From the IMG/VR virus record IMGVR_UViG_3300031933_000167, positions 1-22,152 of that record: a stretch of DNA of 22,152 bases; one strand, 5' to 3'. Of this stretch, positions 7,538-17,239 are shown in pieces (the stretch's first letter is position 1; every line of letters begins with the position of its first letter). The position numbers and the translations under genes were made by a program. This stretch comes from a virus. The notes below the pieces were generated by a model. It searched no databases and was not told the DNA's origin. It saw only the letters and a list, made by a program, of their open reading frames with translations.

Positions 7538-9682
7538 TTATAAATCGCTATCTGTCTTTAGCGATCTCTCAAACTCAACGATTATTTCTGCATCATTGTA
7601 TCCAGCAACAGTATTTAGTATTGATGCGGATAACGGGCCTTGTGGTGATGCAAACCCTGTACCATCATTGCTTGCGCTAGTGTAGAACATTTTAGCAACA
7701 GAATAATCCGCACCAGTGAATGACCTTAACATCTGCAGCCCTAATCCTGACGCTAGGTTTTGACAGTCTTGATATGGGATCATAACGCCAGATGTTTTCC
7801 ACCGAATATAAACACCGACAACAAAATCATTAGCTGTAACACCCATAGATGTAAGCGTTTTTTCTCTAGTTGTTGTACCTGTAAATGTCGTTAAATCTGC
7901 GGATCGTCTATATAGCGCAACGTCTGATTTTGCAGCAATGGCATCACGTTGAACGCCTGTAAGTGGCTGCTTTAATTTAAGCCCAAATGATTTAAGGATA
8001 TTTGACGCTAACTGTTGATGCCCCCTGTCATTAGGATGCAAACCATCACTTAATTGGCTTTGCTCATTTAATTCAAGCGCAGAATGGTCAATTACAGCCC
8101 ATTTTTGTTCAACAGCAAGTTGATAAATCGCTTGCCGATAATCATCATGAGTAATTCCACTAATAGCAACAGGGTATACTGATTCGTTTGATTTTGGAGG
8201 CACAACCAAAACAATAGTGTTGGCCGGTCTGTAAGACTCTAATGTTGTGCCTATTGTTCTTAGGTTATCCGTGTATTCATACGGTGTGCGCGCGGCTGTA
8301 TAAATGTCATTTGTACCGATAGCAAGAACGTAAATAGAATCTGTACCAACATATGCACCGCAAGCGCCAATGCTAACAAGTTGGGCCGGATCTTGCAGAA
8401 AGTCGGTTGTATTAAAACCACTCACGGCCATTTGCATACCAATTGATATGTTTGGCTGGCTAACATTATCCCCAATAGGAACGATTGCAAGGAATTCAAC
8501 AGGGTTGTCAATAACCGTTAATGTTACGTTTGCTCCGCCTGATTCAATGGTTGTGTAGTTAGACAGAATATTTTTAGCGTCAGCACCAGAGCAATCAATA
8601 GTTGCAAGCAATACAGCGTTTTGGCGTATTTCAACACTGCCTGACGTTGTGGTTCTATCAAAGAAAAATGCAATCCTTGTGGCGTTTGGTCTTGTGATAG
8701 TAATTGTTCCGCCAACTGAAATAATTTGGCTTCGTTGAATTGGCCCTGATGACCCAGCGGTTTGTCCAGTTAATGCAACACCACCCATCGAAGTCCAGTT
8801 GAAATCTACCTCATTTGACTGTCCGTATCCACCTTGCTGATAGTCTTGTAGCGCATTAAGAAGAACGCGAGAATATCTAGTATCGTTATTAGTAGCTCCA
8901 ACACCTGCTGTTATTGAGTCACCAAGAATAGTAACAGATCCACCAATCTCAAAATTAGCAGCTCTTTGCGTCCTAGCTTGCAATTTTGCGTTATAGACAG
9001 AAACTGCCTCAGCTTGATGTTCTGGCAAATCATACGGGAATAAGTTTACAAATGTGCTTCCGATGGTTGCTGTCGTTTCTGTAAGTCCAGAAATAACGCC
9101 TGTAGCAGCGGGAACCATGCGCTTGATTCCGTATGCAGTGTTTAAGTGCGTATACCCGCTAGGAATAGTGTCTCCATCACTCACAATCGAATCTGATTCA
9201 ATCGGGTAAATGTCACCTCCAGCTACTGAGGTTCTGAATGACCTTGCTCCATCAAGCTCGGATTCTACGGTTGTATTATCGTAATTAATTAATGATGCAT
9301 CCCTGACATTAACCACTTGATAAGTCGGCTCGCTAGGAATTGTTCCAGCAGTCGCAGTAAACGGCAACGAACCAGTGTAAACCCACTGAGTTGATGCGTA
9401 AACTCCAGGGCTTACTTCTTCCATATAAACAGCGTAGTCAGTGGATTTTGTGAACGTAACACCGTCAGCAAAATTTCCTACTGGACTCCAGTCAAGATTT
9501 TTGACTGTGGCTTCAGCGTCGGCGATTAATTGAGGGATAGTAGGAACAGTAACCCCAGAATCGGGGTTAGTCACTTGAGTGACGGTAGCTCCGGCTGAGG
9601 TTTCACCGGAGCCTACCGTGGCAATAAATTCAGCTTGACGTTCGAGTTTTTCTAGGGAGGCTCGGTTTACCAGATCTGCCAT
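7538..9682 (-). CDS. Tail fibre/tailspike with SGNH (GDSL) esterase domain
   Basis: Probably the receptor-binding fibre, with an esterase that removes acetyl groups from host surface polysaccharide. In 714 residues, positions 1-130 look like a virion-attachment region found in other fibres (GNFADGVTFTKSTDYAVYME, then YTGSLPFTATAG.IPSEPTYQ). From about 245 to 565 there is an SGNH hydrolase: block I ILGDSITAG (nucleophile S256), block III IGTND (455-459) and block V DGLHPND (D546, H549). An inserted beta-rich, lectin-like segment lies between blocks I and III (about 305-400). The last 130 residues form a further C-terminal domain ending KTDSDL. The Shine-Dalgarno AGAGGA sits at a good distance from the ATG. 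Its place between the two terminase genes is unusual. Confidence 0.88.
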   Translation of the reverse strand: MADLVNRASLEKLERQAEFIATVGSGETSAGATVTQVTNPDSGVTVPTIPQLIADAEATVKNLDWSPVGNFADGVTFTKSTDYAVYMEEVSPGVYASTQWVYTGSLPFTATAGTIPSEPTYQVVNVRDASLINYDNTTVESELDGARSFRTSVAGGDIYPIESDSIVSDGDTIPSGYTHLNTAYGIKRMVPAATGVISGLTETTATIGSTFVNLFPYDLPEHQAEAVSVYNAKLQARTQRAANFEIGGSVTILGDSITAGVGATNNDTRYSRVLLNALQDYQQGGYGQSNEVDFNWTSMGGVALTGQTAGSSGPIQRSQIISVGGTITITRPNATRIAFFFDRTTTSGSVEIRQNAVLLATIDCSGADAKNILSNYTTIESGGANVTLTVIDNPVEFLAIVPIGDNVSQPNISIGMQMAVSGFNTTDFLQDPAQLVSIGACGAYVGTDSIYVLAIGTNDIYTAARTPYEYTDNLRTIGTTLESYRPANTIVLVVPPKSNESVYPVAISGITHDDYRQAIYQLAVEQKWAVIDHSALELNEQSQLSDGLHPNDRGHQQLASNILKSFGLKLKQPLTGVQRDAIAAKSDVALYRRSADLTTFTGTTTREKTLTSMGVTANDFVVGVYIRWKTSGVMIPYQDCQNLASGLGLQMLRSFTGADYSVAKMFYTSASNDGTGFASPQGPLSASILNTVAGYNDAEIIVEFERSLKTDSDL

Positions 9683-11713: not shown

Positions 11714-11904
11714 TAGTTAAGTTCATAGAAGTGGAGATCACGGACGGTTTGACACTCCCTCGGTTCTCCGTAGAGGCAGGTTTCAAGTGGGATTTACGCC
11801 CCGACAGAGTTACAGCCGAAGGGTTTATCTTAGGCAGCGGGTTCGTGAAGACACACCAATACAAAGTAAGAGGGTTTCGATATGGGAAGACCACGCGAGA
11901 ATAG
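11710..11904 (+). CDS. Small early phage protein, function unknown
   Basis: A 64-residue basic, beta-rich protein (MIVKFIEVEITDGLTLPRFS ... GSGFVKTHQYKVRGFRYGKT). No recognisable motif. Its ATG overlaps the previous stop by four bases (ATGA), and its last 23 bases overlap the next gene. Likely translated by coupling within the early operon. Confidence 0.6.
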   Translation: MIVKFIEVEITDGLTLPRFSVEAGFKWDLRPDRVTAEGFILGSGFVKTHQYKVRGFRYGKTTRE

Positions 11905-12184
11905 TAAGTTACGAAATATTCCAGCAGCGGTGCTGAATGATGTAGAACGTGTCACAGGGTTCTATCGTGCCAATCGCAGCACCGAGTTCACTGTGGCCAT
12001 CATGGTAAACGGTCGTGAGGTGATGTGCTGGTTTAGCGTTGATGAGGCCACACCAGAAGCCGACGAATTAGTCACTGTGCGCACCGTCAATAACCTGCTG
12101 TATAAGAACGTCGCATATCGTGACGGTGGTTACTGGCTATTAGGACAGCAGATCAAGAACGTTAAGGAGTGGGGGAGATTATGA
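11882..12184 (+). CDS. Early protein, member 1 of a tandem paralogous pair
   Basis: A 100-residue protein starting MGRPRENSKLRNIPAAVLND. It aligns over most of its length with the next gene's product: (G/S)RPxENSKLRxxPxAxLxxVER, FYRANRxxEFxVxIxxNG, and V.TV..., (V/N)xYR in the second half. The N-terminal part is helical and basic, the rest beta-rich. AGAGGG sits seven bases before the ATG. No known domain is visible. A small DNA- or protein-binding early protein is a guess. Confidence 0.7.
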   Translation: MGRPRENSKLRNIPAAVLNDVERVTGFYRANRSTEFTVAIMVNGREVMCWFSVDEATPEADELVTVRTVNNLLYKNVAYRDGGYWLLGQQIKNVKEWGRL

Positions 12185-12474
12185 GTCGTCCAGTAGAGAA
12201 TAGTAAGTTACGCAGTGTACCGGATGCGATGCTGGAACGTGTGGAGCGTATTTTAAAGTTCTACCGTGCCAATCGTAACGCAGAGTTCGAAGTCCACATT
12301 GTAATGAATGGCAAGCGCTATGGGGAGTGGATAAGTGACGAAGCTCCGGACGACGGCGAAGTAGTGACAGTGATCACCGAAGGAGGCGCTAAATTCGTTA
12401 ACGTGGAATACCGTTGCGGGCAGTTCCACTTGCCACTATCGATGCGTGATTACGTTAAATGTTGGATGAGATAA
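12181..12474 (+). CDS. Early protein, member 2 of a tandem paralogous pair
   Basis: A 97-residue protein from ATG 12181, which overlaps the previous stop (ATGA) and has GGGGGAG just upstream; an in-frame GTG at 12169 is less likely. The N-terminus MSRPVENSKLRSVPDAMLER and the segment FYRANRNAEFEVHIVMNGKR mirror the preceding gene. At DNA level both genes share GAGAATAGTAAGTTACG near their starts. It is the last gene before the terminator at 12483. A product of gene duplication; function unknown. Confidence 0.7.
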   Translation: MSRPVENSKLRSVPDAMLERVERILKFYRANRNAEFEVHIVMNGKRYGEWISDEAPDDGEVVTVITEGGAKFVNVEYRCGQFHLPLSMRDYVKCWMR

Positions 12475-16601: not shown

Positions 16602-16967
16602 TCACCGAGTGAACAGCCGGGCAAACTCTCTTTCAGTAACGAACCGCGCACCGACTAGATGCCGCAGTTCTCGTGTGGAATCACCAGCACCGATACTGAC
16701 ATGTGGCCGATACGCATAATCGTAGCGAAACCCCTGCTCAAACCAGTAACTGTGCCGTTGCTCCGCATACTTACATTTAACGATCGCCACAGTCAGGTTC
16801 CGCCCTTGCCAGTATTCTACAGCCGTAACGATACCGGAACGCTCCGCCTCGCCAGTGTGCCAGCGCCCAGTACCAGTGAGCGGCGAAAACATCGTCGTAA
16901 TGTGACCACCATTTAACTCTGGTGATTCTGAGCGCACCGGAAGTGCTGCGTAGAATTTTAAGGTCAT
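16602..16967 (-). CDS. 2H phosphodiesterase family protein (possible anti-CBASS Acb1-like)
   Basis: A 121-residue protein with two H-x-[ST] motifs, the mark of the 2H phosphoesterase fold: GGHITTMFSP (H22, T24) and YRPHVSIGAGDST (H89, S91). They are about 67 residues apart, and the second is preceded by a GFRYDYAYRPH segment. Phage T4 Acb1, which hydrolyses the cyclic nucleotides that trigger the CBASS defence, is a short 2H protein with a similar tail-end (Y.Y..Y.PH[IV][TS]). LigT/2'-5' RNA ligase-like proteins share the fold. GGAG lies 11 bases before the ATG, inside the previous gene's last codons. The fold is well supported; the anti-defence role is inference. Confidence 0.6.
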   Translation of the reverse strand: MTLKFYAALPVRSESPELNGGHITTMFSPLTGTGRWHTGEAERSGIVTAVEYWQGRNLTVAIVKCKYAEQRHSYWFEQGFRYDYAYRPHVSIGAGDSTRELRHLVGARFVTEREFARLFTR

Positions 16968-16969
16968 AA

Positions 16970-17239
16970 TTAGTTTGGCTCCATAGCAGTAGCACGCCCC
17001 ACCAGCGCTTTGACGTCACGCAGTAGCGCATCCCCCTCGTCATTGAGTGGCGTTAGTGCCGCAAACAGTTGCATGATGAATTTTCCAATATCGCAGTCAC
17101 GATTATTGACAATTTCGTCTAACAATGATTCGTCGCTAAATTCACTAAGTACAGACGGCAGAAACATTGAGATATTTTTAGCCCCAATCTGTTTCAGCAG
17201 TGCTTCGAGTTCACACCCGCTTAATTTTTCGATATTCAT
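16970..17239 (-). CDS. Hypothetical acidic helical protein
   Basis: An 89-residue, Leu/Glu/Asp-rich helical protein (MNIEKLSGCELEALLKQIGA ... DEGDALLRDVKALVGRATAM). No enzymatic motif is visible. AAGGAA lies eight bases before the ATG. The start region GATATTCATCGCGCCAGTTC (plus-strand reading) is nearly repeated at the PAPS gene start. It is followed two bases later by the 2H gene, whose Shine-Dalgarno lies in its final codons, so the two are likely co-translated. Confidence 0.6.
   Translation of the reverse strand: MNIEKLSGCELEALLKQIGAKNISMFLPSVLSEFSDESLLDEIVNNRDCDIGKFIMQLFAALTPLNDEGDALLRDVKALVGRATAMEPN

Follow-up and report, generated by a model that had tools for sequence, protein, structure and literature searches.

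The window analysed here is the whole of IMG/VR record IMGVR_UViG_3300031933_000167, a fragment of 22,152 bases from an uncultured phage. Positions 16602-16967 of its minus strand hold a real open reading frame of 121 codons, whose 121-aa product resembles a short Acb1-like 2H phosphodiesterase. A sequence-only reading of this DNA had placed the frame exactly there, giving no strand, and had described a 121-residue product with the H-x-[ST] motifs HIT (residues 22-24) and HVS (residues 89-91); both frame and motifs are confirmed. Two bases separate the stop codon of an upstream 89-aa ORF from the ATG of the gene. A possible ribosome-binding site read from the sequence, GGAG (16979-16982, minus strand), stands 11 bases before the ATG and falls within the 3' end of the 89-aa ORF.

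The gene lies within a minus-strand block of replication genes, which runs in the order SF2 helicase, nuclease-like ORF, PAPS reductase, 89-aa ORF, 121-aa gene and 64-aa ORF, and continues with a methyltransferase-like protein (phrog_757), HNH and a P4-type primase. This neighbourhood had been taken for a plausible counter-defence area, a description that is not borne out: the helicase, PAPS reductase, HNH and P4-type primase mark a replication operon instead, and the libraries searched revealed no recognised anti-defence or CBASS-linked neighbour within the 22-kb fragment. PADLOC likewise named no defence partner in the window. TerL and the primase are closest to those of phages of Escherichia, Citrobacter, Proteus and Salmonella (about 38-41% identity), so a gammaproteobacterial host is likely for the window phage.

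Two further observations concern other parts of the window. The 714-aa ORF adjoining the terminase (7538-9682) contains a GDSL-type esterase domain (Pfam Lipase_GDSL_2, E 4e-16) and is possibly a virion-associated esterase. At 11882-12474 two small ORFs of 100 and 101 aa stand side by side and are mutually similar, both with RPREN/RPVEN-SKLR...FYRANR, and are apparently a tandem duplication.

Relationship to Acb1 by sequence and predicted fold

The motif pair alone is weak evidence, because at least two H-x-[ST] motifs also occur in 15% of shuffles of the 121-aa protein, which is close to chance. A chance reading of the motifs is ruled out by a control with a profile of 53 canonical Acb1 proteins, which scores the ORF at 25.4 bits and the best of 2000 shuffles at 6.0; none of the window's other ORFs was listed by the same profile. 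The homology of the protein to Acb1, with which phages break down the cyclic di- and trinucleotide signals of bacterial CBASS defence, is not chance. Against the Pfam Acb1 family (PF23474) the protein scores 28.5 bits, above the curated cut-off of 27, and its short relatives score about 16-33 bits, straddling that cut-off. The protein also matches phrog_755 (E 6e-9), the family into which T4 57B/Acb1 falls (E 5e-68). The label of PHROG 755, 'RNA ligase', was rejected as evidence for a ligase, since it is a family name only and T4 57B carries the same PHROG. The appearance of this tag on T4 57B (Acb1) and its relatives in PHROGs-based annotation, and in many phage records, conflicts with known nuclease activity.

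Sequence searches of the PDB returned FBB1 Acb1 as the best match of the single protein (E 0.0017) and Acb1 as that of a profile containing short relatives only (E 7e-6). Profile-profile comparison of the short subfamily with canonical Acb1 gave E 1.8e-9. The Pfam families LigT_PEase and 2_5_RNA_ligase2 did not match the protein at E up to 1, the LigT-type Pfam matches found for some short relatives are weak and below the cut-off, and NCBIfam and PADLOC contain no model that matches it. Weak matches to microvirus replication initiators (E 0.06-0.3) were taken as chance. The region aligned with T4 Acb1 covers T4 residues about 40-141: it opens ahead of the first HxT and closes shortly after the second. 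The likeness to T4 Acb1 reported by the sequence-only reading is real, but it is not a likeness to the end of T4 Acb1, which the 121-aa protein lacks.

AlphaFold, with 32 aligned sequences, gave a model with pLDDT 94.3. Its best PDB match (VIA-align) is FBB1 Acb1 (Z 12.5, rmsd 2.2 over 112 residues), followed by the BCSR5 phosphodiesterase (Z 11.4), the plant (Arabidopsis) CPDase (9.8) and the penguinpox cGAMP PDE (9.4); LigT belongs to the same superfamily and is more distant (Z about 8). Matches to BFVD structures include many proteins named Acb1. A second model (pLDDT 88.8), made from an alignment of six short members and no canonical Acb1, again has Acb1 first (Z 12.3), ruling out the fold as an artefact of an alignment dominated by canonical Acb1. 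Both models match 2H structures over their whole length, and H22-x-T24 and H89-x-S91 occupy the start of strands 22-29 and 89-94, the placement expected of 2H motifs. Whole-length superposition on 7T26 places both motifs on the equivalent Acb1 strands; taken together with the sequence alignment, it would bring H22 and H89 close to each other and R117 into the pocket.

The proposal that the product is a 2H phosphoesterase is borne out by the Pfam, phrog_755, PDB sequence, profile-profile and fold matches. Both comparisons that the sequence-only reading had suggested point the same way: the profile search against 2H families puts Acb1 above its cut-off and the LigT families not, and structure prediction gives Z 12.3-12.5 for Acb1 and about 8 for LigT. 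A fold other than 2H, which that reading had said would count against it, was looked for in the two models, and in both Acb1 is the best match. Sequence and predicted fold support Acb1, not LigT, as the closest characterised relative.

The 121-aa protein has in common with the Acb1 proteins of T4 (gp57B) and Erwinia phage FBB1 (PDB 7T26/7T27, PF23474) the 2H fold, the HxT/Hx(T or S) tetrad, the base-stacking Trp74 and aromatic-107 positions and an origin in phages. Those proteins are about 152 aa long, are about 18-20% identical to the 121-aa protein and possess E141, the lid and W147, whereas the 121-aa protein has Arg and no Acb1-type lid or W147. The phosphodiesterase of Burkholderia phage BCSR5 (PDB 9Q2G/9Q2Y, deposited as Acb1) also has the 2H fold (Z 11.3-11.8 to the models), but is longer, has a lid that opens and closes and is only about 11% identical; a literature search found no paper on this enzyme. 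LigT / RNA 2',3'-cyclic phosphodiesterase and plant Appr>p CPDase share the superfamily fold and motifs, but have lower Z (about 8-10), longer chains and no significant single-sequence match, and the short members stay below the Pfam LigT cut-off.

A short subfamily in phages

The product had been described as short for a LigT-type enzyme. Its length is indeed short, but this is common to a whole subfamily, of which many relatives were found in phages. These comprise Vibrio phage 1.198, Thalassavirus, KIT04, Shewanella phage S0112, Klebsiella phages K9PH25C2 and Kpn2-P2, an E. coli phage and the uncultured viral contigs L012, L013, L014, L025/L026, L110 and L111. The hypothetical gene of Vibrio phage 1.198 (AUR94804.1) encodes a protein with 40% identity over the whole length and the same tetrad and Arg; it lies near terminase and portal genes, whereas the 121-aa gene lies in a replication operon. 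A short relative at L014:997-1366 contains a frameshift, which either stems from an error in sequencing or marks a gene in decay.

In a tree with the 53 canonical Acb1 proteins, a branch with 100/100 support divides the short members from the others, a result that shows separation and not the root, the short and canonical groups having been gathered with different queries. Two pattern scans of 84,980 prokaryote genomes found no relatives, the patterns being so narrow that this does not prove absence. None were found on plasmids, nor by a single-protein scan of viral contigs. These comparisons place the 121-aa protein, as judged by sequence, in a short Acb1-related 2H subfamily of Vibrio, Shewanella and enterobacterial phages and uncultured viruses.

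Catalytic and specificity residues

Residues were compared between 13 short members and 53 canonical Acb1 proteins, with T4 numbering from PMC9117128. H44 and T46 of T4 Acb1 are catalytic (PMC9117128). Alignments equate the tetrad H44/T46/H113/T115 with H22/T24/H89/S91, all present here; the first motif, H22-I-T24, is encoded at 16896-16904 and the second, H89-V-S91, at 16695-16703 (both minus strand). The positions of H44, T46, H113 and W74 are invariant (13/13), and that of T115 is Thr or Ser in all short members, Ser also being found in 3 of the 53 canonical proteins. The frame is open in all 13. The base-stacking aromatics Y12/W74/F107 are represented, again by alignment, by Y6 (16950-16952), W53 (16809-16811) and Y84 (16716-16718), all on the minus strand. 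Y6 is the probable equivalent of Y12, in an alignment that is less certain at this point; the position is not invariant in the short subfamily and is kept in 9/13.

T4 Acb1 E141 contacts adenine N6, which explains the requirement of the enzyme for adenine (PMC9117128). Its position is taken by R117 in the 121-aa protein (16617-16619, minus strand), on the evidence of two MAFFT alignments and of a profile-profile alignment, made independently, which paired REFAR with REYKE and so matched the same residues. Short members have Arg (11/13), Lys (1) or Gln (1) here and never Glu; canonical Acb1 proteins have Glu in 52/53 and Gln in the other. This contrast may be sharper than in nature, the two groups having been gathered with different queries, and a single ancestral substitution may lie behind it.

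The chain ends four residues after R117 and has no Acb1-type C-terminal lid (145-152, with W147). None of the 13 short members has Trp at the W147 position. The lid is a less discriminating difference than E141, because W147 is at its position in only 41 of the 53 canonical proteins and absent there from 12. The distance from strand 1 to the first HxT is also reduced, with a median of 14 residues in the short group against 30 in the canonical group. As far as alignment can tell, neither of the two specificity features that were sought is present: Glu141, which reads adenine, and the C-terminal lid carrying Trp147. Cleavage of the usual CBASS signals can therefore not be assumed, and the name Acb1 is best withheld from the 121-aa protein until an assay supports it. 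What is new, as predicted from sequence, is a short Acb1-related 2H subfamily that has kept the catalytic core and replaced the adenine-reading residue.

Proposed function and alternatives

We propose that the 121-aa protein is a phage 2H phosphodiesterase of the short subfamily, opening defence signals made of cyclic nucleotides and preferring other bases than Acb1 does. Acb1-like action on one or another cyclic nucleotide is the most likely reading, and we give this proposal a probability of roughly 0.6. The enzyme would be metal-independent, with H22/T24 and H89/S91 as acid and base and with the ribose 2'-OH attacking the 3'-5' bond of the phosphodiester, as extrapolated from Acb1. W53 and Y84 (with Y6) would stack on the substrate bases, again by analogy with Acb1. 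Opening of a host cyclic-nucleotide signal made on infection would then delay defence-triggered cell death. The change of Glu141 to Arg and the loss of the lid would be expected to make the base preference, and probably also the ring size accepted, differ from those of T4 Acb1. Arg pairs with acceptor groups on bases, for example guanine N7/O6 or uracil O4. Since Arg replaces a Glu that accepts the adenine amine, adenine-free signals (cGG, cUU) may be favoured; this is reasoning, not data. The earlier suggestion of an anti-CBASS protein stands in so far as the enzyme is a 2H protein nearest to Acb1, but its extension to the usual CBASS signals does not follow with Glu141 and the lid absent. 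The following points weigh against the proposal: (i) E141 and the lid, both of which contribute to Acb1 specificity, are missing; (ii) two Thalassavirus-type relatives (Chloris, KIT04) encode RNA ligases; (iii) the 22-kb fragment contains no CBASS-linked neighbour.

A possible, though not probable, alternative is that the protein is simply a small Acb1 which tolerates the lid and E141 changes and acts on 3'3'-cGAMP, cAAA and the other CBASS signals that contain adenine by cleaving them. Its fold and catalytic tetrad are those of Acb1, Trp147 is missing from its position in 12/53 canonical-type sequences too, and Hobbs et al. found cleavage of both 3'3'-cGAMP and cAAA for every one of the nine further acb1 genes they tested (PMC9117128). 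Against this, Glu141, the residue behind the adenine requirement (PMC9117128), is Arg, Lys or Gln in 13/13 short members.

The RNA ligases of Chloris and KIT04 would suit a role in RNA-end repair, in which a 2H 2',3'-cyclic phosphodiesterase cleans the ends left by anticodon nucleases for a phage RNA ligase. 2H enzymes with this role accompany RNA ligases in large phages (PMC9503650), and cyclic-phosphate esterases such as the Arabidopsis CPDase come next among the fold matches (Z 9.8). We consider this role unlikely. It is weakened because neither an RNA ligase match nor Tpt1 turned up in the records of 1.198, K9PH25C2, S0112 and the L013 virus, which are complete or long; nor does the window have a ligase match, Tpt1 was not found in any record searched, and Acb1 ranks first by sequence and by fold. 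Improbable to a similar degree is an enzyme for another defence messenger, such as type III CRISPR's larger cyclic oligoadenylates or the ADP-ribose signals of Thoeris, in which loss of the lid opens the pocket. The lid and inter-strand segment are absent, and 2H enzymes have repeatedly adapted to different immune messengers (PMC11410667), but T4 Acb1 leaves cA4 uncleaved (PMC9117128). A catalytically dead binder (sponge), or a protein with no defence role, is very improbable: the short members are very divergent and the L014 relative is frameshifted, but all 13 compared keep both His and the first Thr, have Thr or Ser at the remaining position and retain an open frame.

If a cyclic-nucleotide phosphodiesterase with a changed base preference is indeed encoded here, it would bear on CBASS itself. 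T4 Acb1 needs adenine in its target, so hosts with adenine-free CBASS signals should be safe from it. A phage enzyme that kept this catalytic core but reversed the charge where Acb1 reads adenine would directly counter such signals, and would show how little of the Acb1 fold suffices. More speculatively, and with considerable doubt, we suggest a compact Acb1 branch in which Glu has become Arg, destroying signals that ordinary Acb1 cannot (e.g. cGG, cUU) and travelling both as a stand-alone gene and as an Ea22-like cassette in temperate phages.

The cassette is suggested by L110:4767-5501 and L111:4695-5501, where a short 2H domain, Arg kept, is embedded in proteins of 244-268 aa, with a coiled coil on one side and a tail ending FAAQLRKG on the other. 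Both ends of these proteins, and not the 2H core, have matches in E. coli genomes, and one E. coli protein sharing the ends is annotated ead/Ea22-like. Ea22 proteins have a common coiled coil and differing C-terminal domains without assigned function (PMC7093339). The 2H domain appears, from these sequence matches, to be one exchangeable module of Ea22-like proteins, and such fusions suggest a biochemical activity for one variable domain of a long-puzzling lambdoid protein. Acb1-like domains were also seen in another setting. One lies at the end of an annotated portal protein of Rhizobium phage RHph_TM3_3_3 (L024:1507-3333), and the solved Pam3 portal (PDB 8HDS) is likewise matched at its end by a profile in which canonical Acb1 predominates (E 2e-11).
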